In this document: positions 4,067 to 26,322 of the stretch, one piece after another
Position numbering within the stretch: the stretch's first letter is position 1
Layout of the letters: each line of letters begins with the position of its first letter
Assembly: GCF_001006305.1 (NCBI RefSeq)
Contig: NZ_LBHJ01000020.1
Location: 124,001-188,000 of the forward strand
Length of the DNA stretch: 64,000 nucleotides
DNA from: Silvibacterium bohemicum
GTDB lineage: Bacteria; Acidobacteriota; Terriglobia; Terriglobales; Acidobacteriaceae
Direction of reading: 5' to 3'
Made by a program: the position numbers and the translations under genes
The notes under the pieces: model-generated
What the model was told of the DNA's origin: nothing
Databases searched by the model: none
The model's input: only the letters and a program-made list of their open reading frames with translations

Positions 4067-4320
4067 CTTTTGCCCCATGCTCTTCCATCGCCCGGACACT
4101 GCTTCGGGTCTTAACCGCCGCCCTGCGGACTACGCGTGTTCTGCTTCGGCCTGACGGCCGCCCTGTGGGTTTCGGGTCCCTCCAAAACAATCTTCTGCAA
4201 AGAGCGCAGAACATTCTTTCGGCCCTCCCGAAAATGCACCCGCTTGCCTTGGGAGGCGGGACCCTCACATCGCTTCGCGTGGTGTGTTCCGAGCGCCTTC
4301 AGAGGCAAGGGGCCAAAAGG
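4067..4320 (+). repeat. Palindromic leader element, copy A (before methyltransferase gene)
   Basis: Noncoding block bounded by an inverted pair, CTTTTGCCCC at the left and GGGGCCAAAAG at the right. Internal hairpins include TTCTGC/GCAGAA (4193-4211) and TTTCGG/CCGAAA (4217-4233). A third stem follows, starting CTTGGGAGG and closing with CCGAG. The layout matches copies B and C, although the stem sequences differ and pairing is kept. The element ends only 12 bp before the methyltransferase start. This points to a structured leader, a promoter or a folded single-strand DNA element. Confidence 0.7.
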
Positions 4321-4331
4321 AGATTTCAGAG

Positions 4332-5054
4332 ATGGCAACCACGACCGTAGCAACCGCGCTGCAGAGCAGCTTCACCAACAAGATCCTTCACGGCAACTGC
4401 ATCGAAGTCATGAAGCATATGCCCTCTAACAGCGTCGATTTCATCCTCACCGATCCACCCTATCTCGTGAACTATCGCGACCGCAGTGGACGCACGATTC
4501 AGAACGATGTCGATGAGAGTTGGCTCAAACCAGCGATGGCAGAGGCGTACCGAGTATTGAAGCAGGACCGCGTGGCTGTGATGTTCTACGGGTGGACGAA
4601 GGTCGATGCGTTCTTCGAAGCCTGGCGCAGCGCGGGTTTTCAGCCTGTAGGTCACATCGTTTTCCGCAAGTCATATAGCTCGAAGAGCAGGTTCCTCCAG
4701 TATCAGCATGAGCAGGCATACCTTCTAGCGAAGGGCAGGCCGCCGCTCCCGAAGCGGCCGCTCGGCGACGTGATGGATATGCCCTATAGCGGCAACAAGC
4801 TCCATCCCACACAGAAACCGGTACCGGCACTGGCGCAACTGATCCGCAGCTTTTCTCTTCCAGGGGAGAGCGTGCTCGATCCCTTCGCTGGAAGTGGAAG
4901 CACCTGCGCTGCATCGCTCCTTACGGGTCGTAAGTACATCGGCGTGGAGATGGATGACGTGTACTTCAAACATGCCAGCGAGCGCTTACAGAGAGTCCAC
5001 CAGAGGGTCGCCGCAAGGCGATCTTCTGCTTCGGGCATTCCCACGCGGGTGTGA
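4332..5054 (+). CDS. DNA methyltransferase (N6-adenine/N4-cytosine, beta class)
   Basis: 240 residues from ATG 4332, chosen because GGAGA lies 10 bases upstream. Catalytic motif IV DPPY is at residues 41-44 and the AdoMet-binding motif I FAGSGST at 185-191. This order defines the beta class (CcrM/M.HinfI-like). HPTQKPV, the conserved stretch before motif I, is also present. It transfers methyl groups to adenine N6 or cytosine N4 in DNA. No restriction endonuclease is adjacent, so it is an orphan enzyme that probably protects the element from host restriction. It directly follows palindromic element A, which may control it. Confidence 0.93.
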   Translation: MATTTVATALQSSFTNKILHGNCIEVMKHMPSNSVDFILTDPPYLVNYRDRSGRTIQNDVDESWLKPAMAEAYRVLKQDRVAVMFYGWTKVDAFFEAWRSAGFQPVGHIVFRKSYSSKSRFLQYQHEQAYLLAKGRPPLPKRPLGDVMDMPYSGNKLHPTQKPVPALAQLIRSFSLPGESVLDPFAGSGSTCAASLLTGRKYIGVEMDDVYFKHASERLQRVHQRVAARRSSASGIPTRV

Positions 5055-5249
5055 TGTTACCCGCGCGCGCCGCGCCTCAAGGCGAGCCATCGCTCTGAGT
5101 CGCGATGATTGCGGCCTTGACCCGCGACATGCCCGCGGATTCTTTGCCAGTCATGGTGGGAATGCCATGATCTGCGCCTGCACGGCGCAATAGAAAACGC
5201 ATGATCTGTGATCCCAACCTGTGTCGCGTACACCACAATCTGGGTCTCT

Positions 5250-5296
5250 GGATTATTGCTCCAGATGGAATAATGCGTCGCAAAAGGTAATAATCG
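5250..5296 (+). promoter_or_regulatory. 47-bp shared upstream sequence, copy 2 (before virB2)
   Basis: This block differs from the reverse complement of 3394-3440 at only two positions. It starts GGATTATTG and ends GGTAATAATCG. The virB2 start lies 85 bp downstream. Weaker similarity continues past it into CCTACTGTC (5312-5320), matched by CCTATTGTC at the other locus, a possible -10 region. It is a candidate operator or activator site controlling the whole secretion operon. The remainder of the gap between 5055 and 5380 holds no gene I can support. Confidence 0.6.
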
Positions 5297-5380
5297 ACCC
5301 CCCTTTTCTCGCCTACTGTCGCTCCAGACGTTGCAACGGAGAGTGCTCACTCGCCGGAGATGCAAACGAAAGGAGCAGAC

Positions 5381-5710
5381 ATGCAACCCAGCCTTCCCAC
5401 CAAACGGCCTCACTTCCGGCGATTGCGTTCGCAATGCCGGAGGTGGGCGATTCCATCGCTGATGTTCCTTGCCGCTCTGCCGGTCTATGCCCAGACCGGC
5501 GCGAGCCCGTGGGAGAACGCGGTCAACGCTCTCAAGACCTCGTTCACCGGCCCCATCGCACAAGGGCTTTCGCTCGTGGCAATCGTCGTCGGCGGACTGA
5601 TGTTCGCCTACGGCGAGGGCCAGTCGAAGAAGATGCTCGCCGGCATCGTCTTCGGCATCGGCATGGCGATCGGCGCGGTTAACTTCATGGCCTGGCTTTT
5701 TCCGTCGTAG
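5381..5710 (+). CDS. virB2: VirB2/TrbC-like conjugative pilin
   Basis: About 109 residues from ATG 5381, which has AAAGGAGC just upstream; an in-frame start 21 bases earlier is less well placed. A basic N-terminus leads into a long signal sequence ending near PVYAQTG. Two hydrophobic segments (GLSLVAIVVGGLMFAYGEG and KKMLAGIVFGIGMAIGAV) joined by a short polar loop are the mark of cyclic or VirB2-type pilins. The processed product would form the conjugative pilus. It is the first gene of the secretion operon and is followed 60 bp later by virB3. Confidence 0.85.
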   Translation: MQPSLPTKRPHFRRLRSQCRRWAIPSLMFLAALPVYAQTGASPWENAVNALKTSFTGPIAQGLSLVAIVVGGLMFAYGEGQSKKMLAGIVFGIGMAIGAVNFMAWLFPS

Positions 5711-5769
5711 CCCTCTGACGGCAGGCCCAACCAACACCCGCAAACGACAGGCAGGAAGGAGGTTAGCAC

Positions 5770-6096
5770 ATGGCAGAGGGCGGTTCAACACGCAACGACG
5801 TACGCAGAAACAAAGTCTTCAAGGCGATGAACCGCCCGCTGACCGTGTTGGGCGCGGAACGCAGATTGTTCTTCGTGGCGCTGATTACAGGTGGCGCCAT
5901 CTTCTCCATGTTGCACTCCCTCATCGGCGGCATCGGCCTCTTCGTTGTAGGCGTCATCATCGCCCGCATTGCGACCAAACACGACGTAGAGATCCTGCGC
6001 ATCCTCTTCAACTCCACGAAATTCCGCAGACGCTACGACTCCATGAAGTGGGAACCAACAGTGATCGTCATCAGGGGGCAGCGTGCTCAGGATTAG
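5770..6096 (+). CDS. virB3: VirB3/TrbD-like inner membrane protein
   Basis: 108 residues. It has a short cytoplasmic N-terminus (KAMNRPLTVLGAERR, resembling the family start), then two adjacent membrane segments (LFFVALITGGAIFSMLH and GIGLFVVGVIIARIAT) and a basic tail. VirB3 proteins sit in the inner membrane and associate with the VirB4 ATPase during pilus assembly. An AGGAGG site lies just upstream. Its last 14 bases overlap the GTG start of virB4, so the two are probably translationally coupled. Confidence 0.85.
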   Translation: MAEGGSTRNDVRRNKVFKAMNRPLTVLGAERRLFFVALITGGAIFSMLHSLIGGIGLFVVGVIIARIATKHDVEILRILFNSTKFRRRYDSMKWEPTVIVIRGQRAQD

Positions 6097-8545
6097 CAAC
6101 ATCACGAAGGACTGGAATGAAGCCGCTTCATTCGCCGAACAGCTTAACCTGTACGGCTTCTGGGACGACCACTGCTTCCTGACTAAGACGGGAGATCTCG
6201 GCGCCGTCCTGAAGCTCGAAGGCATCGACTACGAGAGCCTCGACCATTCGGGACGCGACTACGCGGTCAAGCGGCTCGAAGCCGCTCTCCGCTCCCTCGA
6301 TGACAAGACCCGCCTCTATCAGGTCCTGTTCAAGCACAACCATCCGGAGATCGCGCACGCCACCTATGATGACCCACTCGTCCGCGCCGCGGTAGAACAA
6401 CGCGCGGCGTTTCTCAAGGAAAAGTCAGACCGGCTGTATTCGATCGAGATCTATTGGGTGGTCATGATCGACGGCAGCTACCGTAAAGCCGGTCTGCTGC
6501 ACGCGCTCGCACAGTTGCCGAAGGACCCGCGCTCATCGCTACGCGACCTTCGCGCCCTGTTCTCCGGCGACAAGACGCGGACCCTGCTCTACGAGCAGAT
6601 CGAGCGCGACCGCGTGCGCCTACAACAGAAAGTTCAAAGTTTGAGTGGGCAGCTTAACGATCTTACAAAGATCGAGCTGTCAGGGGCGGAGAAGACCTTC
6701 CGGTTCATCCGGCGTCTCGTAAACTTCCGCCCCTCCAAGATCGATGACGCTCCGCTTCGCGGCTCGCGCCATCTCGACCGGCAAGTCTGTGACTCCGAGT
6801 TAGAGGCGCACCGCGGGTTCCTCCGCGTGGACGATAACTTCGTCCGCGTCCTCACGCTGAAGGAGATGCCCGGCGAGACTCGCCCCCTGCTGCTGCAGGG
6901 GCTGCTCGACGTCCCGGCCAATTTCCATGTCGTGACCGAATGGCATCCGGTGGACAACGCGAAATCCCGCAAAGAGATCGCTTCCCGACGCCGCCATCAC
7001 CACAACTCGAAGACCAGCTTTGTCTCGAACCTTCAGGACCAGCAGAACACCAATCCGAAAGACCAGTTGGTCGATGACTCCAAAGAAGCCGCGGTCGCCG
7101 AGTTGGGCGGAGCCCTCACCTCGCTCGGTATGGAGGGCAAGAACTTCGGTGAGTTTACCTTCTCCGTTGTCGTTTATGACGAAGACCGTCTGAAGGTGGA
7201 ACATGCCGTCGCGGAGTTTCAGAAACTGTTCACGCAGCATGATGGACTGCTCTACGAAGAACGCTACAACCTCCTCAATGCCTTCTTCGCCACTGTCCCC
7301 GGCAACCGGCAGTTCAACCTCCGTAAGCAGTGGGCGCTTAACTCCAACTATGCCGACCTGTCCTTCCTCTTCTCGATCGATACGGGTTCAAAGTGGAACG
7401 CAGAGCTGAATAAAGAATATCTGGCAGTCCTCGAATCTACCCACGGCACCCCCTACTACCTGAACCTGCACTATGGTGATGTTCCCCATGCGCTGATCAC
7501 CGGGGCCACGGGCAGCGGCAAGTCCTTTCTCACCTCATTCCTGTTGCAGTCGGCGCAGAAGTATCAGCCCCTGACCATCATCTTCGATCTCGGTGCCAGC
7601 TACGAGATGCTGACGCGAACCTTCGGAGGGACCTATCTCAACGTCGGGTTGAAGACCCCAGGGTTCAGCATCAATCCGTTTTCGCTGGAACCGACGCACG
7701 AGAATCTCAACTTTCTTTATCTCTTCCTCCAGGTCCTGATCGAATCCGGAGGTCGCTATGAACTAACAACCGCCGATGAGAAGATGCTCTACGCTGCGCT
7801 GGAGCGCGTGTATAAACTCCCGCGCGAGATCAGGACGCTTACCAACTTCGCGTCCATCCTCGGACCTTTGGGCGAGCGTCTCCACCGCTGGACGCGTGCC
7901 GGCCAGTTCGGCTATCTGTTCGACAACGTAGAGGACACGCTCACCTTCTCGCGCTTCCAGACCTTCAACTTCAGCGGCTGGGACAAGTACCCCGATGTCC
8001 TCGAACCGATGTTGTTCTACGTGCTGCAACGTGCCTCATCAGAGATCGAGAAGCCAGAGAACGTCGGCATCTTCAAGCTCTTCGTCATCGATGAAGGCTG
8101 GATCTTCTTCAAGAAGCGCATCATCCGCGACTGGATCACGAGGGCCGAGAAGACATGGCGCAAGCTCAACGCGTCCATGATCCTCGCCACACAATCCATG
8201 ATGGAGCTCAAGGACTCCGGGTTGCTCGAACTCGTGAACGAGTCCTGCCCCACCCGGATCTTCCTCGCCAATCCCGGCATCGACCGCAAGCTCTATGCCG
8301 AGACCTTCCAGTTGAAGGACACCGAACTGGAGCTGCTGGAGTCGCTGGTCCCCAAGCGTGACCTGCTCTTCAAGCAGCCACAGTATGCCAAGAAGCTCCG
8401 CCTCGCTGTCGATCCCCTCAGCTACTGGACCGCGACAAATACGCCTCGCGACAACATCCGCAAACAGGATTACTTCGCCCGCTTTGGGCCGGAGCAGGGC
8501 TTGCTCCGGCTCGTCCAGGACTTTCCCAACCCACTCAACCAATAA
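6083..8545 (+). CDS. virB4: VirB4/TrbE-family conjugation ATPase
   Basis: 820 residues from GTG 6083, preceded by AGGGGG. The N-terminal half is the VirB4/CagE domain. The C-terminal half is a RecA-like ATPase with Walker A GATGSGKS near residue 475 and Walker B LFVIDEGWIFF near 668, followed by ILATQSMMEL, the conserved glutamine motif. It powers pilus biogenesis and substrate transfer at the cytoplasmic face of the inner membrane. Length is normal for VirB4. It overlaps virB3 and lies 8 bp before the VirB9 gene. Confidence 0.97.
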   Translation: MLRISNITKDWNEAASFAEQLNLYGFWDDHCFLTKTGDLGAVLKLEGIDYESLDHSGRDYAVKRLEAALRSLDDKTRLYQVLFKHNHPEIAHATYDDPLVRAAVEQRAAFLKEKSDRLYSIEIYWVVMIDGSYRKAGLLHALAQLPKDPRSSLRDLRALFSGDKTRTLLYEQIERDRVRLQQKVQSLSGQLNDLTKIELSGAEKTFRFIRRLVNFRPSKIDDAPLRGSRHLDRQVCDSELEAHRGFLRVDDNFVRVLTLKEMPGETRPLLLQGLLDVPANFHVVTEWHPVDNAKSRKEIASRRRHHHNSKTSFVSNLQDQQNTNPKDQLVDDSKEAAVAELGGALTSLGMEGKNFGEFTFSVVVYDEDRLKVEHAVAEFQKLFTQHDGLLYEERYNLLNAFFATVPGNRQFNLRKQWALNSNYADLSFLFSIDTGSKWNAELNKEYLAVLESTHGTPYYLNLHYGDVPHALITGATGSGKSFLTSFLLQSAQKYQPLTIIFDLGASYEMLTRTFGGTYLNVGLKTPGFSINPFSLEPTHENLNFLYLFLQVLIESGGRYELTTADEKMLYAALERVYKLPREIRTLTNFASILGPLGERLHRWTRAGQFGYLFDNVEDTLTFSRFQTFNFSGWDKYPDVLEPMLFYVLQRASSEIEKPENVGIFKLFVIDEGWIFFKKRIIRDWITRAEKTWRKLNASMILATQSMMELKDSGLLELVNESCPTRIFLANPGIDRKLYAETFQLKDTELELLESLVPKRDLLFKQPQYAKKLRLAVDPLSYWTATNTPRDNIRKQDYFARFGPEQGLLRLVQDFPNPLNQ

Positions 8546-8553
8546 GGAGACTT

Positions 8554-9309
8554 ATGCACCGCTCGCCTATCTTCCCGCTCCTCCTCGGCCTTGCTGCCAC
8601 CGTCGCGCACGGCCAGCAAACTACCGCCCGCATCGTCAAATACCACGCCAACGACATCGTGAATGTTCGCGGAAAGATGAGCTACACCACGCTCATTCAG
8701 CTTCCGCCAACAGAGAAGATCCTGGACGCTGCAACCGGCGACAAAGACTTCTGGATCGTCGATACGGTCGGGAATTACTGCTTCGTCCATCCGGCCAAAG
8801 CAGGCATCCATTCCAGCCTCGACCTGATTACCGACAAGGGCAGCGTTTACTCCTTCACCCTCGATGAAGCTGGACCTTCCGATCCCGACCTGAAGGTCGT
8901 CATCGAGCCGTCCGACCCGGCCTTGCTTACTGCATCGAACGGCGCCAGCAAGCTGGTCTCTGCTTCGGAGGTCATGGCTGCGCAGGAACAAGTGCGGCTG
9001 GCCCAGACTCATGCCGCAACCGCCGCAGAACAATTCCGCGCCGACTATCCCGTCAAGGCGCTGAAGTTCGATTACACCTACCGCAACCAAAGCCCCTTCA
9101 ATGTCTCGGCGATCTATCACGACGACAAGTTCACCTACATCAAGTCGTCAGCCTCTGAGAAGTTCTCGATCTACGAGCTGAAAGACAAGAAGCCCGACCT
9201 GATCACGTTCCAGCTTCTGGACGGCACCTATGTCATCCCCACTGTGGTCGATCACGGCTACCTCCAGATCGGCAAACACAAGCTCAGCTTCGACCGGACC
9301 GGCAAATAG
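8554..9309 (+). CDS. virB9: VirB9/TrbG-like outer-membrane-complex protein
   Basis: 251 residues with signal peptide (SPIFPLLLGLAATVAHGQQ). Two regions match VirB9. The first is YTTLIQLPPTEKI with GDKDFWIVD and NYCFVHPAK. The second is the C-terminal beta domain with FNVSAIYHDDKFTYIKS and YVIPTVVDHGYLQIG. VirB9 with VirB10 and a VirB7-type lipoprotein builds the core channel across the periplasm. An AAGGAG site precedes the start. The gene sits between virB4 and virB10 as in other VirB operons. Confidence 0.9.
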   Translation: MHRSPIFPLLLGLAATVAHGQQTTARIVKYHANDIVNVRGKMSYTTLIQLPPTEKILDAATGDKDFWIVDTVGNYCFVHPAKAGIHSSLDLITDKGSVYSFTLDEAGPSDPDLKVVIEPSDPALLTASNGASKLVSASEVMAAQEQVRLAQTHAATAAEQFRADYPVKALKFDYTYRNQSPFNVSAIYHDDKFTYIKSSASEKFSIYELKDKKPDLITFQLLDGTYVIPTVVDHGYLQIGKHKLSFDRTGK

Positions 9310-9317
9310 GAGGCAAC

Positions 9318-10583
9318 GTGCCAGAGGAAAAACAGATCCCCGAAGTATCCGAGGTGCAGGCTGCTGCACCTCAAACGCAGCCCCCTCCGGCCCTGCGCGA
9401 CAAGCGCGTCCTGCCGGAGGGTGTTGTCCCCAAACAGGCGCAGGGTTACGTCGTTGCAGGACTCGCTATGCTCATTCTGCTCGCCGTGATGTTCTCGAAG
9501 AATCACGCGAAGACCACGCCTGCTGCTCTTCCGAACGCGACGCCATTCTCGAGCGATGCGAACGCGCGGAAAATCGCAGAGTTGGAACAGAACCTGACTG
9601 CGGAGCAACGACAAAGCCAGCAGCAGGCACAACAACAGAAAACGTCTCCTGCCGGCACGACTGCAGGAACCCAGGCTCCCACGCAGGCCGGTGGCCCGGC
9701 GTCTCCTGCTGCGCAGTCGGTAACGCCCGCTGCCACGGAACCGCCCCGCGATCCCATCGCTGATGCGGAGAAGGCAATGGCGTTCAAAGCCCGCTTCGCG
9801 TCGAACCTCGTCTCCGCCGACGCTGGCGCTTCGCGGCCATCGGCGTCTCCCGCGGGCTCCGCTGACGCGATCGCCCGTCCGGAGTCCGACTCGGTCACGT
9901 CTGCTCCTCGTTCTGCGACCTCGGCGTCGCAGGCTTCTGCTTCGCAGACCGCCGCGAATAAGCGTGCGCCAGAGGTAAGCCTTAACTCAGCACATGGCCA
10001 GCCTTTTGCGATCTTCGAGGGCACCACAATCGACACCGTTCTGGTGGACCGTCTCGATGGAGAGTTCGCCGGGGACTTCAAGGTCATGGTCACCAACCCT
10101 GTCTATAGCGAAGACCGTCAGCATGTGCTCATCCCCGAGGGAACCTTCATTCTCGGCAAAACCCAGAAGGTATCGAGCTTCGGCCAAAAGCACCTGGCTC
10201 TCACCTTCCACCGGATGCTCATGCCGGACAAATACAACGTAGACCTCGACCAGTTCACAGGTCTCGATCAGGCAGGTGAGACCGGCGTCAAAGGCAAGGT
10301 CAACAACCACTATCTCGAAATCTTCGGGACATCCATTGCTCTCGGCGTCATCGCTGGCGCTGCTGAGGCCACGACCAACAGCGGCTACAACGAAAGCGGC
10401 TCGGATGCTTACCGTCAGGGCATCGCATCCAGCCTTTCGCAGTCGAGCGCGAACGTGCTCGACCGCTTCATCAACGTCCTGCCCACGCACACGATCTTCG
10501 AGGGGCACCGTATCAAGGTCTACATCACCCAGGACATGCTGCTGCCCGCTTACGAAAACCACGACATGCCGGCGGTGTTCTGA
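9318..10583 (+). CDS. virB10: VirB10/TrbI-like channel scaffold protein
   Basis: 421 residues from GTG 9318 after AGGAGG. It has a short cytoplasmic N-terminus and one membrane segment (VVAGLAMLILLAVMFSK, near residue 50). A long Ala/Gln/Pro/Ser-rich periplasmic linker runs from about 75 to 215. The C-terminal TrbI/VirB10 domain includes VLIPEGTFILGKTQKV and the region before RIKVYITQDM. It spans from inner to outer membrane and gates the channel. Its stop codon overlaps the next start by one base. Confidence 0.93.
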   Translation: MPEEKQIPEVSEVQAAAPQTQPPPALRDKRVLPEGVVPKQAQGYVVAGLAMLILLAVMFSKNHAKTTPAALPNATPFSSDANARKIAELEQNLTAEQRQSQQQAQQQKTSPAGTTAGTQAPTQAGGPASPAAQSVTPAATEPPRDPIADAEKAMAFKARFASNLVSADAGASRPSASPAGSADAIARPESDSVTSAPRSATSASQASASQTAANKRAPEVSLNSAHGQPFAIFEGTTIDTVLVDRLDGEFAGDFKVMVTNPVYSEDRQHVLIPEGTFILGKTQKVSSFGQKHLALTFHRMLMPDKYNVDLDQFTGLDQAGETGVKGKVNNHYLEIFGTSIALGVIAGAAEATTNSGYNESGSDAYRQGIASSLSQSSANVLDRFINVLPTHTIFEGHRIKVYITQDMLLPAYENHDMPAVF

Positions 10584-10735
10584 TGCGTGCCGCTCTCATC
10601 CTTTGTCTCGGCTCCGTGCTCGTGGTTGGCTGCGCCTCCCCCTCGCAGCCGCCGAAGCCCTCTCCCTATCGGTACAGAACGCCCGAACGCGTTTCCACGC
10701 GTTCTCCGTTCCGTCCCGTATCCATCCACCTGTAA
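10583..10735 (+). CDS. Small lipoprotein, VirB7 candidate
   Basis: 50 residues beginning MRAALILCLGSVLVVGCASP. The lipobox VVGC would leave a short mature lipoprotein rich in Pro, Arg and Ser. The ATG overlaps the virB10 stop (TGATG), which indicates translational coupling. Size, lipobox and position match VirB7-type lipoproteins that anchor VirB9 in the outer membrane. TrbK-type entry-exclusion lipoproteins look similar, so that alternative stays open. Confidence 0.7.
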   Translation: MRAALILCLGSVLVVGCASPSQPPKPSPYRYRTPERVSTRSPFRPVSIHL

Positions 10736-10753
10736 CTCCACGGAGGTTTCACC

Positions 10754-11665
10754 ATGAAAGCAATAAGAACTCTTCTCCCCGTCTTCAGCCTGTTCGCTAC
10801 GCTCGCGCTCGCGCCTGCGGCGCACGCGCAGTTCGGCTCAGGCATCGTCTACGACCCAACCCAGAGCGCCCACGCGGTTCAGGAGATTCAGCAGGGCGAG
10901 CAGCAACTTCAGAAGTGGGCGACCGAACTCAACAACTGGCAGCAACACCTCCTCAAGGAAGCCCAGATATTTACCACCGCGGAACAGACGCGGACGCAGA
11001 TCGTGACCATGTACAACCTTGCCTACCAGATGGCCACGATGCCCCAAAACCTTGAGGCGCGCTACAAGGCAGACTGGTCGCGATGGGAGAGCCTCGCGGC
11101 TCCGCCAAACTCCTACGGCAATACGTCTCCCCTGGTAAATGCTCTCAACTTCGGCGGATTGCCACAGGCACAGCAGGGATACAACAGCGCCTACGTGCAG
11201 CCTCAGAGCTACCCCTCGGGCAGCTACTCGTCGCTCGATGCAAGGACGCAAGCCACGGTCGCGAATCAGTACGCGACGTCCGAGTTTGCGCAGAGTACGA
11301 CCACCAGCACGCTCTCAACCCTCGGCACGATCCGCGCCGATGCCCAGGCATTCGCCACCAAACTCGCCAACCTCGAATCGGACACGTTCTCCAACGATCC
11401 CAGCCAGCAGACCCAAAATGCCCTGCTCGGCAAGATCAACTCTGCCACGCTGCTCCAGATCCACTCCCAGCAGGACACCAACCAGCTCCTCATGGCTTCG
11501 ATCCAGCAGCAGCTTCTCGCCCAGAAGCAGCAGATTGATGCGCAGAACCGCGCCATCAACGACGCCATTTACTTCCAGCAGAACTTCTCCAACACCATGC
11601 AGAACGTGAGCAATGGCGTGAGCACGTCACTGCACGCGATCTCACTCAGCACCACAGCACAGTAA
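10754..11665 (+). CDS. VirB5/TrbJ-like secretion protein
   Basis: 303 residues with a signal peptide ending ALAPAAHAQFG. The mature protein is almost entirely helical and Gln/Ala/Asn-rich (VQEIQQGEQQLQKWATELNNWQQH), with coiled-coil character at both ends. This is the pattern of TrbJ/VirB5 minor pilus proteins that sit at the pilus tip and contact recipients. The start follows GGAGGTTTCACC. Position between the lipoprotein and virB6 supports the call. Sequence similarity to VirB5 is low, as usual in this family. Confidence 0.8.
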   Translation: MKAIRTLLPVFSLFATLALAPAAHAQFGSGIVYDPTQSAHAVQEIQQGEQQLQKWATELNNWQQHLLKEAQIFTTAEQTRTQIVTMYNLAYQMATMPQNLEARYKADWSRWESLAAPPNSYGNTSPLVNALNFGGLPQAQQGYNSAYVQPQSYPSGSYSSLDARTQATVANQYATSEFAQSTTTSTLSTLGTIRADAQAFATKLANLESDTFSNDPSQQTQNALLGKINSATLLQIHSQQDTNQLLMASIQQQLLAQKQQIDAQNRAINDAIYFQQNFSNTMQNVSNGVSTSLHAISLSTTAQ

Positions 11666-11679
11666 GCCGGAGGTCGTTC

Positions 11680-12501
11680 ATGCAGGATAATCCGTTTACC
11701 TTTCTCGGCCAGGCCATCAGCCAGCTTCTGTCCTCGAACAGCGGGGCATTGCAGGCAGCGGGACTCGATATGTTCCGCGGCCTGGCCGTGATTCTTATCG
11801 TCTGGTTTGGGATCAAATCCGCCCTGTCCGCGTCGCAGGGACAGGGCGGATTCCACTTCGGCAAGTTTGCCGACCTGATCCTGTTGATCTCGTTTGGCCT
11901 TGGAATGCTGACTTACTACTCGACACCGATTCCAGGTGTTGGGTACAGCTTCAGCGACCTCGTCACCAAAGAGGCTCTCAGCATCTCCGGCCAGATCGAG
12001 TCCGATACCACGCAACAGATCGCTACCACGGTCACCACCGCCGAGCAGCAACTCGGTGCGCCTCCGGGCAACTTCAACATCCTCGAAGACCTCGTGTATC
12101 TGATCCTCGCGCTCCTTCTGGCCGCAATGGAGGCCGTGTCCTTCGCTGTGATCGCATACGGCTACGTTGCCGCCGCCGTATGCGTGCTGATCGGCCCGGT
12201 CTTCATCCCGTGGTTTGTGGTGCCGAAGATGGACTGGCTCTTCTGGGGATGGTTCAAGGCATTCATCGGCTTCAGCTTCTACCAGGTCATTGCCTCGGCC
12301 TTCATCTTCGTCTTCTCGAAGGTGCTGACCTCGATGTTCCAGGTCATTGGCACCCTCAGCCTCTCAAACGCCCTGATGAATCTTCCTGCGCTCTTCATCA
12401 CCCTGATGGTCTGCATCTACGGCCTCGTCAAGATCCCCGAGTTGACTGGCGCCATTCTTAGCGGGCGCAGCGGAACCTGGGTCAACCCGATGGGACGGTA
12501 A
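11680..12501 (+). CDS. virB6: VirB6/TrbL-like polytopic membrane protein
   Basis: 273 residues with about five to six hydrophobic segments: AVILIVWFGIKSAL, ADLILLISFGLGML, LVYLILALLLAAMEAVSFAV, a long AAVCVLIGPVFIPWFVV, VIASAFIFVFSKVL, and a last one at LFITLMVCIYGLV. The amphipathic Trp-rich stretch MDWLFWGWFKAFIGF is typical of VirB6/TrbL. The protein forms part of the inner-membrane channel through which DNA passes. It starts 14 bp after the VirB5-like gene and is followed 2 bp later by virB8. Confidence 0.87.
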   Translation: MQDNPFTFLGQAISQLLSSNSGALQAAGLDMFRGLAVILIVWFGIKSALSASQGQGGFHFGKFADLILLISFGLGMLTYYSTPIPGVGYSFSDLVTKEALSISGQIESDTTQQIATTVTTAEQQLGAPPGNFNILEDLVYLILALLLAAMEAVSFAVIAYGYVAAAVCVLIGPVFIPWFVVPKMDWLFWGWFKAFIGFSFYQVIASAFIFVFSKVLTSMFQVIGTLSLSNALMNLPALFITLMVCIYGLVKIPELTGAILSGRSGTWVNPMGR

Positions 12502-12503
12502 TC

Positions 12504-13187
12504 ATGACAGCTACAAACTACGCGATTCGAACCACAGATGCCGGGCACCGATTTCTGGAGCTGTACGCCGAGCCAGTTGTCACCAACACCTACCTCAAGG
12601 TCGCGCTGCTCGTGCTCTCGGTCGTCACGCTCGCTTCGCTCACGCTCCTCTATCGCGCCGAGACCGCTGCCTTGCGGCTGAAGCCGCTCGTCATCGCGGT
12701 CTCGGAGGCGGGACGTGGACAGGTGTCGAGCTATGCCGACTTCTCAAAGGTCCCCGTTGATCGGGTGAGCAAGTATTACCTCGCCCATTGGGCGGAGCTT
12801 TACTACGGTCGCAATCACGCGACGTTGCAGCGTGACTTCCGTGAGTCGATGGACCTGTTCTCCGATGACTTGCAGGGCGCTACGCTTCTGCGCGTCACCA
12901 GGGCAAAGACGCTGGAGACCTTCCTTCTCGACCCGAGCGCCCCGAACGTCGATGTCGAGATTAAGACCGTGGTCCTTGAGGACCTCCGACAGGCTCCCTA
13001 CCGCGCTCATATCGAGTTCGAAAAAGTCTTCCGTTCGCCCGGCGATCAGGACGAACAACGCCGCGAACGCTGGACGGCGAACGTCGTGTACGGATTCCGC
13101 GACGAGGTCCCAAACAAGATGCTACTCACCAATCCTCTCGGTCTGGTCATCAGCTACGTCCATGAGGATCAGGCATTCGGGAGCTAA
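12504..13187 (+). CDS. virB8: VirB8/TrbF-like inner membrane protein
   Basis: 227 residues. A short cytoplasmic start (FLELYAEPVVTNTYLK) is followed by one membrane segment (VALLVLSVVTLASLTLLY, about 35-52) and a periplasmic NTF2-like domain. The domain includes YLAHWAELYYGRNHAT and ERWTANVVYGFRDEVP, ending NPLGLVISYVHEDQAF. This matches the VirB8/TrbF architecture; the protein nucleates assembly of the secretion channel. It begins 2 bp after virB6. Confidence 0.88.
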   Translation: MTATNYAIRTTDAGHRFLELYAEPVVTNTYLKVALLVLSVVTLASLTLLYRAETAALRLKPLVIAVSEAGRGQVSSYADFSKVPVDRVSKYYLAHWAELYYGRNHATLQRDFRESMDLFSDDLQGATLLRVTRAKTLETFLLDPSAPNVDVEIKTVVLEDLRQAPYRAHIEFEKVFRSPGDQDEQRRERWTANVVYGFRDEVPNKMLLTNPLGLVISYVHEDQAFGS

Positions 13188-13192
13188 CGACC

Positions 13193-13585: not shown

Positions 13586-13617
13586 GACAGCTCATAGGCA
13601 TTCAGTCGCTCTCCGGT

Positions 13618-13829
13618 CTTTTGCCCGATTCATCCTCGGACACCCGTTCGGTGCTTATCCCGCGCCCTTCGGCACGGCGCGTCTCTGCTTTTACGGCCTT
13701 CAAAAAATCTTTTTGCGACCAACGCAAAAACATTTTCCGAACCTTCCGGAAAAGACGCCGCTTGGCCTTGGGAGCAGGGCACCTTCACGTCGCTCCGCGC
13801 AGGGGTGACCCGAGCACGCTTCGGGCAAA
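13618..13829 (+). repeat. Palindromic leader element, copy B (before ssb-like gene)
   Basis: Bounded by TTTTGCCC (from 13619) and GGGCAAA (13823-13829). It contains a perfect 8-bp hairpin TTTTTGCG/CGCAAAAA (13710-13730) and a 7-bp hairpin TTTTCCG/CGGAAAA (13733-13753). A third stem starts CTTGGGAG and closes with CCCGAG near 13813. It is strongly similar to copy C in its outer parts (GCACGGCGCGTCTCTGCTTT), while the hairpin arms differ and stay paired. It ends 23 bp before the ssb-like gene. A structured leader or single-strand DNA promoter is proposed. Confidence 0.75.
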
Positions 13830-13851
13830 CCCAATACCGGAGAAGACAGGA

Positions 13852-14247
13852 ATGAATACCGTATCTCTCACAGGCGTCATCGCAAGCACTCCCACCACCG
13901 CAACCGCCGGCAACGACCTGACCTATACCAGTTTTCGGCTTCGCGTCCATGCAGCTTATCTGGGCGACAGAGACGATGCTTACACCTACGTCGATGAGCA
14001 CACCATCATCTGCGTGGGACAACTGACAGATATGCTCCGCATCCTTCCGCGCGACGAGGAGATCAACGTCGGAGGCGAGTTGCGGACACGCATTCATGTC
14101 TACCGCGTCGGCGAGCCAATCAACATCAATCTCGCCTATCCCTTTTCCGAAGTGGTTGCGGATTCGATCACATGGCGCGACCTCACCTTCAAGAGGACGG
14201 CAGGAGAAGACACCCTGATTGCTCTCTACAGACCAGAACGGCAATAG
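13852..14247 (+). CDS. SSB-like OB-fold protein
   Basis: 131 residues from ATG 13852, chosen because GGAGAAGACAGG lies just upstream and the longer reading frame runs through palindromic element B. The start MNTVSLTGVIASTPTT with TYTSFRLRVHAAY, then HTIICVGQLTDML and NVGGELRTRIHVY, follows the strand pattern of single-stranded DNA-binding proteins. It lacks an acidic tail. It probably coats or protects incoming single-stranded element DNA. A terminator hairpin follows 10 bp after the stop. Confidence 0.75.
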   Translation: MNTVSLTGVIASTPTTATAGNDLTYTSFRLRVHAAYLGDRDDAYTYVDEHTIICVGQLTDMLRILPRDEEINVGGELRTRIHVYRVGEPININLAYPFSEVVADSITWRDLTFKRTAGEDTLIALYRPERQ

Positions 14248-14256
14248 GCCGGTTTC

Positions 14257-14288
14257 GCGGAGAGGCTGCTTGTTCGCAGCCACTCCGC
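14257..14288 (+). terminator. Intrinsic terminator after ssb-like gene
   Basis: GCGGAG-A-GGCTGC pairs with GCAGCC-A-CTCCGC (12 pairs around one A-A mismatch) with a six-base loop, followed by TTTCTTC. The left arm GCGGAGAGGCT is also found in the terminator at 20874, so the two ssb-like units share their 3' signal. Confidence 0.75.
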
Positions 14289-14319
14289 TTTCTTCATCAG
14301 CAGTTTCAAGAGGACATTC

Positions 14320-15162
14320 GTGAGTGAGTTGGTCTACATCGGCGGAGTATCTGGCGGCATTGACTCGCAGGCCGCTGCGCGGTTCATGCTGAACCGCTAC
14401 GGCTCCGCTCGCGTCGTCCTCGTGAACTCGGACGCAGGCGGAAACGAACATCCGCTAACTATCGAACACATCGACTGGTACTCGCAGCATGTGTGCCCGG
14501 TCATGAGAATCAACGCGAAGGTCGGCGACTTCCGCAGCGACGAGTGGTGTGAGACGAAAGGCATCGATCCAGAGTCAGAGCTTACGTTTCCCGAACTCGC
14601 CAGGATCAAAGGCCGCTTTCCGTCCCGCAAGGCGCAGTTCTGCACGGAAGCACTGAAACTCGCACCCATCCGGCGATGGATCGAGGAGCACTATCCGGAC
14701 GGGAACTACGCGCGCTTCACTGGCGTTCGCCGCGATGAATCCCCGTCCCGCTCTCAGCGCGAATGGCAGGAGTGGGACGACTACTACGATTGCGAGTTGT
14801 ACAACCCCGTCTTCGACTGGACCAAACAGATGTGCTTCGACTACGTGAAGCACCACGGAGAGCAGATCAATCCGCTCTACACGCTCGGCTTCTCGCGTGT
14901 CGGCTGTGCCCCATGTATCAACTCCGGTAAAGACGACGTCCTCAATTGGGCGACGCGCTTCCCCGAAATGATTGACAAGGTCCGTGCCTGGGAACGGCAG
15001 GTAGGACGCACGTTCTTCGCACCGTGCGTCCCAGGCATGGAGATCAACTGGATCGACGAGGTCGTTGCGTGGGCAAAGACCGATCGAGGAGGCCGGCAGA
15101 ACAATCTCTTCCGCATCCTGCCGCCACCTTCCTGTGAATCGAGGTTTGGTCTATGCGAGTGA
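14320..15162 (+). CDS. PAPS-reductase-like PP-loop (adenine nucleotide alpha hydrolase) protein
   Basis: 280 residues from GTG 14320. The PP-loop motif SGGIDS is at residues 11-16, which binds and cleaves ATP. Further conserved features are FCTEALKLAPIRRW, the RRDES element near 147 and a C-terminal cysteine pair CAPC near 197, all typical of phage and mobile-element members of the PAPS reductase/DndC group. The true substrate is unknown; activation of a thiol or base for DNA modification fits better than sulfate assimilation, as no cys genes are nearby. It heads a block of four overlapping genes ending with a DNA methyltransferase. Confidence 0.8.
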   Translation: MSELVYIGGVSGGIDSQAAARFMLNRYGSARVVLVNSDAGGNEHPLTIEHIDWYSQHVCPVMRINAKVGDFRSDEWCETKGIDPESELTFPELARIKGRFPSRKAQFCTEALKLAPIRRWIEEHYPDGNYARFTGVRRDESPSRSQREWQEWDDYYDCELYNPVFDWTKQMCFDYVKHHGEQINPLYTLGFSRVGCAPCINSGKDDVLNWATRFPEMIDKVRAWERQVGRTFFAPCVPGMEINWIDEVVAWAKTDRGGRQNNLFRILPPPSCESRFGLCE

Positions 15163-15386
15163 CCGCCTTACCCTTCGGTCTCGGCGCAGTTGTGCGTGGC
15201 GAGCATATAGAGCGGTCTTCCGATCGAACCCGCTTGCAGCGGGTCGAACGGATACTCGAAGCCGCACCCGAGGCAACAGAGCGCATGCTGCGACTTTGCG
15301 ATTTCCTTTCGCACTACATCCGTGGGCAGCTTGTCATCTTCGATGAACCGCATGCCCGCAGGCTATCACGGGAAGGTGCTGCATGA
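15153..15386 (+). CDS. Small hypothetical protein in modification cassette
   Basis: 77 residues beginning MRVTALPFGLGAVVRGEHIE. Its ATG lies inside the end of the preceding gene (10-bp overlap) and its end overlaps the next start by 4 bp, so it is translated as part of a coupled unit. The product is helical and Arg/Glu-rich (RLQRVERILEAAPEATERM). No motif was recognised. The overlaps are the main evidence that it is real. Confidence 0.6.
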   Translation: MRVTALPFGLGAVVRGEHIERSSDRTRLQRVERILEAAPEATERMLRLCDFLSHYIRGQLVIFDEPHARRLSREGAA

Positions 15387-16150: not shown

Positions 16151-17913
16151 GATACCTCTCCGTTTGTTCAGGGATCGAAGCCGTTTCGGTTGCGTGGCAA
16201 CCTCTCGGCTGGCAGCCCGCGATGTTCGCAGAGATCGATCCGTTCTGTGCATGGCTGCTGCGCTCGCGCTATGGCGCGTCGCGTCCGCTGCACATGCCCA
16301 GCCCGAACGATGCCTCCAATCGGAAGGAGGCGAAGCAGCGCGCGGCAGCCATCCGCAACGTTGTTGCTCTGCCTGCCGATGGCGCGGTCATCAACGCCGG
16401 AGACTTCACAAAAATTGGAGTAGAGGATGTTGGAACAATCGACCTTCTGGCCGGAGGAACACCTTGCCAGTCTTTCTCCGTCGCCGGTAAGCGAGCAGGA
16501 CTGGATGACCCGCGTGGCAACCTCACTATCGAGTTTGCTCGACTTGCTGGCAGACTCAGGCCCCTATGGCTGGTGTGGGAGAACGTCCCCGGCGTCCTGT
16601 CGATCGATGACGGACGGACGTTTGGAGCCTTCCTCGGGATACTGGTCCAACTCGGGTATGGGATCGCCTACCGAGTTCTGGACGCTCAGCATTTTGGAGT
16701 TCCCCAGCGACGGCGTCGCGTCTTCGTTGTCGGACATCTTGGAGACTGGCGAGGTCCCGCAGCGGTACTACTTGAGCGCCACAGCCTGTCGGGGTATCCT
16801 CCGCCGCGCCGTGAAACGCGGAAAGACGTTGCCCCCACTCTTAGCGCGCGCGCTCATGGCGGTGGCGGGCCGGGAACAGACTTCGACCTCAGTGGCGGCC
16901 TGATTCCCAGCACCGGAGACACCCCTCATTGCCTCAATGCGGGGGGCATGGGAAGACAGGACTTTGAAACCGAAACTCTCATCACTCACGCGCTCTCAGC
17001 CGATGGCTTCGACGCGAGCGAGGATGGCACCGGGCGTGGAACGCCCATGGTGCCCGTCGCAATCTGCACCGCACATACACAATCGAACGGAAGCGGTTTC
17101 TCCGATGATGTTGCGCACACTCTTGAGAGTGGTGGCGCTCAGGCTGTCGCCTTTGCGCAGAACAGCCGAGATGAAGTGCGACTGCATGGTGGAGACGGCA
17201 AGACAGTCGGGGCACTCGCAGCGCAGCCAGGCGTAAAACAGCAATCCTACGTCGCCTTCTCTGCGAAAGACTATGGAGCCGACGCAGATAGCGTCGCACC
17301 GACACTGCGTGGCATGGGACATGACCGGAGCCATGCGAATGGTGGCGGCCAGGTAGCGATCGCCTTCGCACAGAACCAGGAAGGAAATGTCCTGAGTGGC
17401 GATGTGATGCAGTCGCTTGGAACCAACTCCAATGCCACCGGACGCAACGCCCCGACGATCGCGTTCACGCTACACGGCAGCGACGGTACCGCAAGTGCGG
17501 CTTCATCCACTGAAGTCGCAGGAAGTTTGCGTACACGCGCCCCTGGAAGCATCGAGAACAGCTCGACGACTGCCGTGCTTCAGGAGCAGCCCGTTGCCTG
17601 GTCTGGAGAACTCACTGCATCGACCGATGTCACGGGAACTCTTCAGCGTGGCGGCGAGGGTGGGCGAGTCGATGGAGTGATGACGCCTCAGATGGCCGTG
17701 CGGCGATTAACCCCTCGTGAGTGTGAGCGGTTGCAGGGATTCCCAGACGATTACACGCTGGTCGAGTATCGCGGCAAGCTGGCAGCGGATGGCCCCCGCT
17801 ACAAAGCGCTCGGCAACTCGATGGCAGTTCCGGTCATGCACTGGATAGGGAAACGGATTGCGGCAGTCGATGCCATCCTCCGTGACCGGCGCGGCGACGG
17901 GGAGTCTGGGTGA
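16147..17913 (+). CDS. DNA cytosine-5 methyltransferase with repeat-rich target domain
   Basis: 588 residues. Motif I lies at the very start (YLSVCSGIEAVSVAW). The catalytic Pro-Cys is in GGTPCQSFS (Cys107), the ENV motif at 145-147 and motif VIII QRRRR at 187-191. The C-terminal part has LTPRECERLQGFPDDY and YKALGNSMAVPV. Between about 225 and 440 is a Gly/Ala/Ser-rich insertion with repeated segments of the type VAxTL-GG and AIAFAQN, as in phage-encoded enzymes with extended or multiple target recognition. It methylates DNA cytosine at C5, probably to protect the element. It is the last gene of the coupled cassette. Confidence 0.93.
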   Translation: MRYLSVCSGIEAVSVAWQPLGWQPAMFAEIDPFCAWLLRSRYGASRPLHMPSPNDASNRKEAKQRAAAIRNVVALPADGAVINAGDFTKIGVEDVGTIDLLAGGTPCQSFSVAGKRAGLDDPRGNLTIEFARLAGRLRPLWLVWENVPGVLSIDDGRTFGAFLGILVQLGYGIAYRVLDAQHFGVPQRRRRVFVVGHLGDWRGPAAVLLERHSLSGYPPPRRETRKDVAPTLSARAHGGGGPGTDFDLSGGLIPSTGDTPHCLNAGGMGRQDFETETLITHALSADGFDASEDGTGRGTPMVPVAICTAHTQSNGSGFSDDVAHTLESGGAQAVAFAQNSRDEVRLHGGDGKTVGALAAQPGVKQQSYVAFSAKDYGADADSVAPTLRGMGHDRSHANGGGQVAIAFAQNQEGNVLSGDVMQSLGTNSNATGRNAPTIAFTLHGSDGTASAASSTEVAGSLRTRAPGSIENSSTTAVLQEQPVAWSGELTASTDVTGTLQRGGEGGRVDGVMTPQMAVRRLTPRECERLQGFPDDYTLVEYRGKLAADGPRYKALGNSMAVPVMHWIGKRIAAVDAILRDRRGDGESG

Positions 17914-17917
17914 GCAC

Positions 17918-18224
17918 GCGTATGCAGATTCTCACGACACCGACGCGTACTTCCTTCTCGCGGATACAGGTGGGGCTTCTTCTTGCCGTCACCAATCCTG
18001 AGTGGATGGTCTGCGTCTCGCCTACGACCCTGTCGCCCGAATACGGGATCTCCGCCTGGCAGGGAGCTGCACACAACGATGCCGGCCAAACGGTGCAGTG
18101 TACCCACGCGCAACACTTGCAGCCGGACTTGGTGGCCAGCAGACACCGTGCGGTTGGTTTTTGGTTGCATCGGCATCCTCAGCGCCGTCGAACCCTTCAG
18201 TCGAGTGTTTCCGTAAAGCGCCAT
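17918..18224 (-). pseudogene. Degraded ssb copy, inverted relative to the intact ssb
   Basis: On the minus strand, blocks match the intact ssb at 20017-20424. The start MALYGN corresponds to MALYEN, followed by ATKNQ, a match to the segment coding LATKSG, then VVGETQT and REKEVR. The matching blocks fall in different frames, so frameshifts have destroyed the gene. Its upstream side, GGGCAAATACAGGAGAG before the old ATG, also matches the leader of the intact gene. The two ssb copies therefore once diverged from palindromic element C. The gap after the cytosine methyltransferase holds only this remnant. Confidence 0.8.
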
Positions 18225-18230
18225 CTCTCC

Positions 18231-18396
18231 TGTATTTGCCCAGCTTTCCCTCGGTCACTCGCTTCGGTGCTCACCCCGCGCCCTGCGGCACGGCGCGTCT
18301 CTGCTTTTACGGCTTTCAGAAAATCTTTTCGACAACCTCCGCACAGAACGCGGACGAAAAGATTTTCCGAACCTTCCGCAAAAGCGCCGCTTGGCA
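18231..18396 (+). repeat. Palindromic leader element, copy C, left part
   Basis: This is the left portion of an element whose right portion lies at 19936-20000, separated by an insertion sequence. TGTATTTGCCC (18231-18241) is a perfect inverted repeat of GGGCAAATACA (19990-20000). It contains a perfect 12-bp hairpin AAAATCTTTTCG/CGAAAAGATTTT (18320-18366) with an inner TCCGC/GCGGA. Similarity to copy B ends at GCCGCTTGG, which marks the insertion point. Confidence 0.8.
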
Positions 18397-18466
18397 CACA
18401 TTATGAAAGGACGCCCCACCCCCCTACGTGCAAGAGGAGTAAAAAGCCAGAGGGAGGAAGAGCGAG

Positions 18467-19534
18467 ATGGACAGCATCAAGTATGTCGGCATGGACGTTC
18501 ACAAGGAAACAGTCTCGATTGCAGTGCGTAACCAGGCGGGGAAGATCGTGATGGAGACAGTCATAGAGACGAGAGCGAACGCGATCCTCGATTGCATCCG
18601 AGGGATGCGTGGTGAGCTGCATATCACCTTCGAAGAAGGTACGTGGGCCGCATGGCTCTATGACCTATTGCATCCTCATGTTGCGCGCGTCGTGGTCTGC
18701 GATCCACGCCGGAACGCCTTGCTCACCGAGGGCAACAAGGGAGACAAGGTCGACGCACACAGGCTTGCGGCATTGCTTCGCGATGGCGGTATGCTTCGGC
18801 CGGTCTACCACGGTGAGCACAGCCTGCGCTCTCTGCGAGAGCTGGCGCGCAGTTACCTCGTCATCACCCAGGATGTGACACGGGTGATGAACCGCACGAA
18901 GGCGCTGTATCGCGGCTGGGGTATTCCATGCGGCGGACAGCAGGTATATGCAGCTAACCACCGTGAAGCGTGGCTGAGCAAGCTCCCTGAGACTGGCGTG
19001 CGGCGCAGGGCGGAACATTTCTACCAGGAGTTGGACGCGCTCCGGGCACTCCGCCAGCAGGCAAGACGCGACCTGCTGACGGAGGCTCGTAAACAGCCGG
19101 CCACACGCTGGCTCCGTCAGGTCCCGTACATCGGACCGATCTGGTCAGCGCTGCTCGTTGCGTTGCTCCAGACACCTCATCGCTTTCGGACGAAGAGGCA
19201 GCTCTGGTCTTACTGTGGGCTGGCCATCAGAACATCGAGCAGCGCCGACTACCAATTCATTGACGGAGAGCTGAAGCGATCGAAGAAGTCGCCTCTTCTC
19301 CGCGGGCTCAACACGAACCACAACCATGCGCTGAAGAACATCTTCAAGCACGCCGCGATGGGCGCAAGTTGTGGTTCAGGCCCGCTCCGTGAGTTTTATG
19401 ACGCCCAGGTCGCTCAGGGGAAGAAGCCTGCGATGGCCCGGCTGACATTGGCCCGTAAGATTGCGGCCGTCACTTTAGCTGTTTGGAAGCAGGAAGGAGG
19501 GTTTGACGCGGCCCATCTAAAGCTGCAGGCTTGA
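18467..19534 (+). CDS. IS110-family transposase (DEDD RuvC-like recombinase)
   Basis: 355 residues. The N-terminal RuvC-like domain starts KYVGMDVHKE with the first catalytic Asp, and includes ITFEEGTWAAWLY and NKGDKVDAHRLA. The C-terminal Tnp20 domain includes the helix-hairpin-helix VPYIGPIWSALL and ends with GASCGSGPLREFYD, which holds the conserved serine. It moves the element by an RNA-guided recombination that does not leave normal target duplications. The start follows GGAGGAAGAGCG. The frame is intact, so the element may still be active. Confidence 0.95.
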   Translation: MDSIKYVGMDVHKETVSIAVRNQAGKIVMETVIETRANAILDCIRGMRGELHITFEEGTWAAWLYDLLHPHVARVVVCDPRRNALLTEGNKGDKVDAHRLAALLRDGGMLRPVYHGEHSLRSLRELARSYLVITQDVTRVMNRTKALYRGWGIPCGGQQVYAANHREAWLSKLPETGVRRRAEHFYQELDALRALRQQARRDLLTEARKQPATRWLRQVPYIGPIWSALLVALLQTPHRFRTKRQLWSYCGLAIRTSSSADYQFIDGELKRSKKSPLLRGLNTNHNHALKNIFKHAAMGASCGSGPLREFYDAQVAQGKKPAMARLTLARKIAAVTLAVWKQEGGFDAAHLKLQA

Positions 19535-19922
19535 GCGCCCCGAGAACAGATCTACCATGCAGGCGATTCTTCGCTTCGTTGTGGCCAGAGACGTTTCCGG
19601 AGCTCTCGGTTCGAGGGTGAGTATCCACTCCCAAGTTAGGCGATCACGCGCCTCGGCGCACAGTCTCCATTGGCACTCTATGCCCCCTTGGATAACCGAA
19701 GAAAGTCGTAGGCCTCGAGTCTCGAATAAGACCATGGTTGGCACCTTTGCCAATCGGTTCGCTTGTCAGCTTCGAAAGTGGATGGCGTTCGCTCAACGAT
19801 CACGATGAATAACTCTGCAAGGAAAGAACTGCAATCGAGACAAAACCTGAAGGCGTGGGGGTTGGGGCTGGCTGTCAAGAGACGGTCGCTCCGCGACGGG
19901 AGAACCCTGTCTCTTGACAACC
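19535..19922 (+). ncRNA. Candidate bridge RNA region of the insertion sequence
   Basis: The 390-base noncoding 3' part of the insertion sequence, between the transposase stop and the right subterminal repeat, is where IS1111-type elements encode their bridge RNA. The last part folds into an 11-bp perfect stem, TGTCAAGAGAC (19873-19883) with GTCTCTTGACA (19909-19919), enclosing a smaller GTCGC/GCGAC hairpin. No convincing protein is encoded. The exact RNA ends and its guide loops cannot be read off directly. Confidence 0.4.
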
Positions 19923-19935
19923 CCTTTCATAAGAC

Positions 19936-20000
19936 TTGGGAGCGGGGCACCTCGCGTCGCTTCGCGCAAGAGTGTCCCGAGGGCAATCCGGGCAAATACA
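19936..20000 (+). repeat. Palindromic leader element, copy C, right part
   Basis: It starts CTTGGGAGC, closes a stem with CCCGAGG near 19975 and ends with GGGCAAATACA (19990-20000), the partner of 18231-18241. It lies 16 bp before the intact ssb start, so the ssb gene keeps only this proximal part plus the right end of the insertion sequence upstream. Confidence 0.75.
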
Positions 20001-26321: not shown

Positions 26322-26322
26322 A

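Follow-up and report, generated by a model that had tools for sequence, protein, structure and literature searches.

The element and its copies in the window

We analysed a 64,000-nt stretch of the Silvibacterium bohemicum genome (contig NZ_LBHJ01000020.1, positions 124,001 to 188,000; hereafter the window), which contains the left-hand portion of what is likely an integrative conjugative element (ICE) with integrase, type IV secretion system (T4SS), virD4 and virB11 genes. Three copies of a structured, palindromic element, here called A, B and C, lie directly upstream of a methylase gene, a gene for an SSB-like protein and an ssb gene, with start codons at 4332, 13852 and 20017, respectively. 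In window coordinates, the features are:

4067..4320, + strand: element copy A, with an extra inserted hairpin module, before the methylase gene (covariance model, 83.4 bits)
4332..5054, + strand: N6/N4 DNA methylase gene of the PRK13699/NF010253 type, 55% identity to the pESBL-EA11 DNA methylase
13618..13829, + strand: element copy B (covariance model, 166 bits, match 13636-13813)
13852..14247, + strand: SSB-like gene, 131 amino acids (Pfam SSB, 19.9 bits, under the 26-bit cut-off)
18231..18396, + strand: element copy C, left part (covariance model, 108 bits)
18397..19935, ends approximate, + strand: IS110-family insertion in copy C (transposase open reading frame 18467-19534)
19936..20000, + strand: element copy C, right part (30 bits for 19882-19980)
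20017..20424, + strand: ssb gene (PF00436, 60.8 bits, in the open reading frame 19936-20424)

A, B and C are members of one structured element family. All three lie where a preliminary description of this DNA had placed them, and its proposal of one shared element was borne out by a covariance model built from 11 copies (B and ten relatives), which recovers A and the left part of C; a blastn search with B as the query matches the left part of C and misses A. Some details of that description need amending. The shared ends it gave, TTTGCCC and GGGCAAA, do not hold for copy A, whose right end is no clean GGGCAAA, and, among the methylase and two ssb genes said to follow the copies, the methylase gene and the ssb gene after C stand while the gene after B is a weak SSB match. 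The IS110-family element entered copy C at a CTTGG core, the structured element being its target here.

The element precedes ssb and methylase genes

Of 300 host-family genomes searched with the covariance model, 99 carried the element, as did 86 of 399 genomes of the class, 31 of these outside the host family; in a sample of the phylum searched at a stricter cut-off, 23 of 347 genomes carried it, all from the host family. With blastn, copy B matched six places in its own genome (including B and part of C, A being absent) and gave matches in 13 of 100 genomes, a count that includes the own genome and a spurious 33-base hit (L018); copies matched in this way are often paired, 9-13 kb apart. A 23-base pattern with 21 fixed letters retrieved 23 stretches from GTDB contigs, every title acidobacterial and Edaphobacter, Granulicella, Acidobacterium and Paracidobacterium among them. 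A blastn search with the element of relative L007 found nothing in the 72,556 plasmid records of PLSDB, and the element of one relative had no match in phage records.

Downstream genes were assigned for 128 copies, those with flanks read from among the matches listed in the host-family search; copy C, duplicates and the L018 hit were left out. Genes were sought on the 3´ side only, within 150 nt, and SSB genes were called with a single 60-residue SSB reference at E values up to 1e-4. SSB genes follow 98 copies, PRK13699-type methylase genes 24 and SSB-like genes two (B and L034, the latter gene likened to that after B by eye), which places the element just upstream of an ssb, SSB-like or methylase gene in 124 of the 128 copies; neither kind of gene follows L040, L043, L077 and L123. 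The model match ends 22-41 nt from the start codon of SSB genes and 14-48 nt from that of methylase genes (median 35-36 nt), and Shine-Dalgarno-like motifs are present in 112 of 122 copies. Two or three copies, each ahead of a gene of its own, can occur in a single conjugative element. Of the 20 copies examined from other families of the class (part of those listed from the class search), 16 sit before SSB genes; among the exceptions, L178 reaches the contig end, and L191, L192 and L195 have no such gene.

The 20-kb context was read for 11 own-family and five other-family loci, hand-picked from good assemblies. All 11 own-family loci, which come from nine genomes, have T4SS genes next to the element. 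Among the five other-family loci, one has T4SS genes, L220 has a weak methylase match alone and three have nothing.

Random scatter of copies outside mobile elements, the outcome that the preliminary description had named as speaking against its reading, is thus not what the family shows. The same description had raised a mobile repeat resembling a miniature inverted-repeat transposable element as an alternative. Inverted ends and several copies per genome would suit such a repeat, but the helices covary across the family (see below) and the position ahead of ssb is retained in other families. We rejected it because the genic position is fixed, with no dispersed insertion, and regard it as hardly credible.

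A long interrupted stem with covarying helices

Where three hairpins had been described earlier, we find one long interrupted stem (P1, P2, P3 and P4) with a side hairpin, P5. P1 is the closing helix of the element, and P2 consists of four pairs, a bulge, five pairs, a G·A step and three further pairs. Inward of P2, the five pairs of P3 are variable and are followed by a TCT bulge, by a GCTTTT-CGG stem that is conserved, by P4 and, at the apex, by a loop; the TCT bulge and this AAAGAAC-like loop are conserved unpaired motifs, as judged by eye.

Covariation was scored on alignment A3 (103 rows, 101 distinct), which was fitted to the structure model and on that account flatters covariation; the split copy C accounts for two of its rows, one for each part. 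The score over the 101 distinct rows was 0.262, compared to 0.085 with shuffled partners (0 of 500 as high) and at most 0.051 with slid partners. Changes on both sides were found in 41 of 49 pairs (27.7 in shuffles) and in 541 cells versus 166, pair counts that come from A3 alone, with 27 rows of alignment A4 outside it. Covariation is strong, and its absence, the second outcome that the preliminary description had named as speaking against its reading, is not seen. The share of pairing is 93-99% in P1-P3, 84% in the P4 stem, 94% in the P4 apex, 77-88% in the middle stem and 71% in P5. A direct parse of P2 gave 38 distinct helices, in which 87 of the 128 copies have all nine Watson-Crick pairs and another 30 have seven or eight, 11 copies being unparsed; the extension of P2 is C-G in 108 and T-A in six of 114 parsed copies and is never in a mixed state. 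Since this parse tried many offsets per copy and had no matched null, the claim of covariation rests on the A3 shuffle score. In P3, all five pairs swap among Watson-Crick types. The covarying helices would tell experimenters which bases to change.

As single-stranded DNA, the template strand folds with z scores of -5.4 for B, -2.4 for A and -7.0 for the relative L007; over the 128 copies the mean is -2.25, and 71 of the 128 fall below -2.

Extra hairpin modules were observed at one fixed site (after CTGCTT) in copy A and in L004, L010, L020, L021, L026, L016 and L017. L006 and L023, from different genera, have a common other insert with CATCACCCC...GGGGACCCCGATTCTGCGG.

DNA or RNA, and which strand

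The element could also be a structured RNA leader, a riboregulator that acts on translation or termination of the ssb and methylase mRNAs, for instance in response to SSB. The short distance to the start codon and the Shine-Dalgarno-like motifs are consistent with such a leader, as are a long palindrome by some ssb copies that could mask the ribosome site, some G·T pairs in P4 and RNA folding z scores of -3.8 for B and -5.6 for L007. RNA helices often pass via G·U, however, and this is scarce here. Among 2100 lettered cells of P1-P3, we counted 16 G·T and 24 A·C, with no G·U in P3, whereas for RNase P RNA from three host-family genomes the counts were 21 (G·U) and 4 (A·C) in 303. G·U in the best helices is about ninefold rarer than in this small control, and the G·T/A·C ratios of element and RNase P differ with a Fisher p of 0.0007, a guide value given that the rows are related. 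Because G·U is scarce in P1-P3, the structure looks like one of DNA rather than RNA. The comparison is drawn from P1-P3, as P4 shows more G·T and aligns poorly.

Other observations bear on the same question. Copy A has an unremarkable RNA folding z of -1.3, compared to -2.4 for its template DNA, and an Rfam scan of the window at gathering scores returned the tRNA alone, with no described RNA family matched. A + strand scan for terminator-like hairpins followed by a T-run gave none in B and one weak match in A, at 4193-4211. Given the scarcity of G·U in P1-P3, we consider the RNA leader, which the preliminary description had kept as an alternative, unlikely. G·U scarcity in covarying helices may itself serve as a sequence-only test that separates selected single-stranded DNA structure from RNA structure.

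With respect to the strand, the template is the better-folding strand in 92 of the 128 copies, or in 80 of them after subtracting each strand's own shuffles, and mean z scores are near equal for the two DNA strands (-2.05 and -2.25). Over the full set of 49 pairs, A·C outnumbers G·T by 141 to 69, and it still does so after thinning to 38 rows (56 versus 33). Much of this excess lies in poorly aligned columns, and a direct parse of one such position yielded 14 cases only. A choice of strand from G·T versus A·C was tried and given up, as the difference in P1-P3 vanishes on thinning (G·T 7 and A·C 6 in 38 rows). We therefore limit the claim to a structure that is not RNA-like, the template strand not being proven by these counts.

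The palindromic form, the about equal folding of both strands and the about equal rarity of G·T and A·C in P1-P3 would also be expected of a duplex-DNA switch, a cruciform or inverted-repeat operator controlled in donors and with no single-strand role. Such a switch is at odds with the conserved asymmetric loops and bulges, with the large internal loops in the stem and with a gene set that is the early-transfer set, and we give it very little weight.

Orientation relative to candidate origins of transfer

If the element acts on an entering strand, the direction of transfer matters. All 11 diverged own-family T4SS loci have, on the far side of ssb, a conserved block resembling an origin of transfer (oriT). 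Its distance to the ssb start is 0.9-1.9 kb in the nine loci with ssb placed by motif; in the other two, L224 and L229, ssb was taken from the flank reading (as L097 and L115). On the template strand of ssb, the block reads as a hairpin followed by GTGGAGTGT in 7 of 11 loci, with ATGGAGTGT in 4 of 11. GTGGAGTGT shares 8 of 9 letters with the F-type nick core GTGGGGTGT given in sections of PMC5422253 and PMC7755788, and according to the former the nick-site GTGGGGTGT of the F and R1 oriT has an inverted repeat immediately on its 5´ side. Over the 220 kb of these loci, both strands counted, 26 motifs differ from GTGGGGTGT at no more than one letter; seven of them lie in the oriT-like blocks, all on the template strand.

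Mobilisation genes come after ssb in these loci. Pfam runs on the proteins of L225, L227, L230 and L233 revealed the TrwC relaxase of MOB_F (L230 and L225), TrwB (L230) and, in L227, a RepB primase together with a NikA-like match below the cut-off; the start motif of TrwC is present in 7 of the 11 loci. If the block is the nick, the strand that enters would be the ssb template, and ssb and the element would both lie in the leading direction, as a single-strand promoter would need. For the diverged relatives, the template strand is thus a motif-based candidate for the transferred strand, an orientation that fits the single-strand reading of the preliminary description.

For the window ICE, the corresponding features are:

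23701..23775, no strand assigned: palindrome with 19-nt perfect arms and a conserved core, candidate oriT, upstream of a gene for a 105-amino-acid protein and virD4
21547-22605 and 22602-23651: two conserved backbone proteins with no Pfam family, in the place expected for a relaxase

The palindrome is present in all seven related elements compared, and its position matches that of the relatives' oriT-like block. For the two proteins (352 and 349 amino acids), no convincing family was found, and their AlphaFold models had pLDDT (predicted local distance difference test) values of 50 (poor) and 72 (moderate). A structure search with the pLDDT-72 model gave weak matches, many of them winged-helix regulators and none at E <=0.001.

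The surrounding ICE and the mirrored ssb

The remaining features of the window and of the likely ICE, together with a second likely integrative element of the same genome, are:

1688..3007, no strand assigned: tRNA gene and adjoining tyrosine integrase, likely ICE boundary
5360..13187, + strand: T4SS genes virB2, B3, B4, B9, B10, B5-like, B6 and B8
14320-15162: gene with a PAPS-reductase domain, between copies B and C
17876..18230, - strand: degenerate inverted partial ssb copy, left of C, without an SSB reading; extends the palindrome into ssb
24285..27446, + strand: genes for the virD4 coupling protein and the virB11 ATPase
G000:C13:125744-240185 (114 kb) and G000:C10:21474-85378 (64 kb): two likely integrative elements of one genome, with the same tRNA 3´ end

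The 3´ end of the tRNA is repeated on the same contig 114 kb off, outside the window, and the two sites are the likely ICE boundaries. Also bounded by the tRNA 3´ end, the 64-kb stretch on another contig carries two more copies of the element. In the T4SS, virB4, B9, B10, B6 and B8 were assigned by match and virB2, B3 and B5 by position; homologues of the window's T4SS genes are also found in six related elements compared.

A degenerate inverted copy of the 5´ part of ssb lies left of many ssb copies, its match to the own ssb beating the best shuffled control in 60 of 98; for swapped pairs the figure was 69 of 490 and for methylase copies 1 of 24. In the window and in L004, L021 and L058, the mirrored ssb has many small deletions relative to ssb, with palindrome arms of several hundred bases. 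The mirror may be left over from an inverted duplication from which the hairpin arose, or may lengthen the fold.

A probable leader active in the entering strand

Collectively, these data lead us to conclude that the element, about 200 bases long and carried by conjugative elements of soil acidobacteria, is a real and old DNA leader with a defined structure, linked to early-transfer genes that protect incoming single-stranded DNA. By analogy to Frpo/ssi sites, to which it would not be homologous, it is probably a leader active in single strands that expresses ssb and methylase genes from the entering strand. The transferred strand, template of the downstream gene, would enter the recipient single-stranded and fold into one long interrupted hairpin; this would offer a double-stranded platform at which host RNA polymerase starts, with SSB and methylase made at once, ahead of the second strand. 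Conversion to duplex would then remove the fold and switch expression off. The folding in the cell, the recruitment of polymerase, the timing and the shut-off are inferred.

The Frpo-like reading of the preliminary description gains from the position, the covariation and the orientation in diverged relatives, and loses from the promoter scans. Over the span from model match to start codon, -35/-10 boxes were not enriched, the best match scoring 7.0 of 12 versus 7.4 of 12 in shuffled copies, and a stricter scan at A and B found none. Several further points weigh against a leader acting in the transferred strand. The template-strand folding z is not under -2 in 57 of the 128 copies, pairing is less frequent in P5 and at some places in the middle stem (77-78%), and the strand preference is weak. 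The RNase P control consists of three sequences, and P4 has a larger share of G·T than P1-P3 (stem and apex combined, 46 G·T and 39 A·C in 909 lettered cells). Within 20 kb, 4 of 5 other-family loci are without T4SS homologues. For the window ICE, the strand polarity is by analogy only; a PF03432 relaxase search gave no match in it, the one PF03432 hit of this genome being on a different contig.

The failure to find promoter boxes is also consistent with a single-strand initiation or protein-binding site, used for second-strand priming or for loading of SSB or the relaxosome, whose proximity to ssb has nothing to do with transcription. To the eye, the TCT bulge and the AAAGAAC-like loop do look protein-bound. 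Yet in 122 of the 128 copies the start codon of an ssb or methylase gene follows on the same strand at a distance of at most 48 nt, and the presence of two or three copies ahead of separate genes suits a gene switch and is needless for priming; we regard such a site as improbable. Returning to the leader active in the entering strand, we tentatively suggest, with somewhat less confidence than in the leader itself, that it may represent a class of single-strand DNA promoters free of sigma-70 boxes, unrelated to Frpo and read through DNA shape and loop motifs. Such promoters may have arisen in the host's taxonomic class and be old enough to be common to several of its families, and in some lineages their hairpin may extend through the mirrored, degenerate ssb.

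Comparison with known systems

The gene after copy A, a relative of which is present in at least 5000 plasmid records, belongs to the same family as M.EcoGIX and the PRK13699 methylases. In pESBL-EA11, the methylase, ssb, psiB and ardA are all oriented towards the mobilisation genes nikA and nikB, and the 'DNA methylase' of this plasmid is presumably M.EcoGIX itself. M.EcoGIX from pESBL is described in portions of PMC7736820 as single-strand specific and as encoded in a region that is transferred early; that paper proposes that an upstream Frpo drives its expression.

The oriT-like blocks of the diverged relatives resemble the oriT of MOB_F (F/R388-type) systems in having a small hairpin and then GTGGAGTGT on one strand, near TrwB and TrwC genes; they differ in that 4 of 11 relatives carry ATGGAGTGT, and the likeness is seen in relatives and not in the window ICE. 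The sso of ICEBs1 is likewise a single-strand DNA site in an ICE, but is described as a replication origin in the part of PMC4595007 that we cite.

The closest parallel is with the Frpo/ssi sites of F, ColIb-P9 and their relatives. Both are folded elements directly before ssb and a plasmid-type methylase gene in conjugative elements, both form a stable stem-loop in the single strand, and both occur in at least two copies per element. The Acidobacteriota copies are 4.6 and 9.5 kb apart in the window and 9-13 kb apart in relatives. In F, according to passages of PMC9849209, the two Frpo copies are about 5 kb apart and are needed for early expression of the genes behind them.

The defining feature of Frpo is a pair of -35/-10 boxes rebuilt in the stem, and Frpo doubles as promoter and primer site. 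The acidobacterial element differs in being a long interrupted stem with covarying helices, in which no -35/-10 boxes were found, in its host phylum, Acidobacteriota, and in having its copies among or beside T4SS genes. A further difference is the lack of a blastn match of the L007 element in plasmid records, a comparison in which known Frpo sequences were not aligned directly.

A survey of leading regions (PMC11541004, in the sections drawn on here) combined BLAST searches using five known Frpo/ssi sequences with a fold and -35/-10 search in a few islands. The single-strand promoters that we could find in print, as far as these sources describe them, descend from, or were sought with, few known Frpo/ssi sequences, and in the open-access literature searched we found no publication title on an acidobacterial single-strand promoter. 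If our reading is true, the element would be a second, unrelated class beside Frpo/ssi, early expression from the entering strand would have been solved more than once, and the element's own covariance model would be a tool for finding such switches elsewhere.

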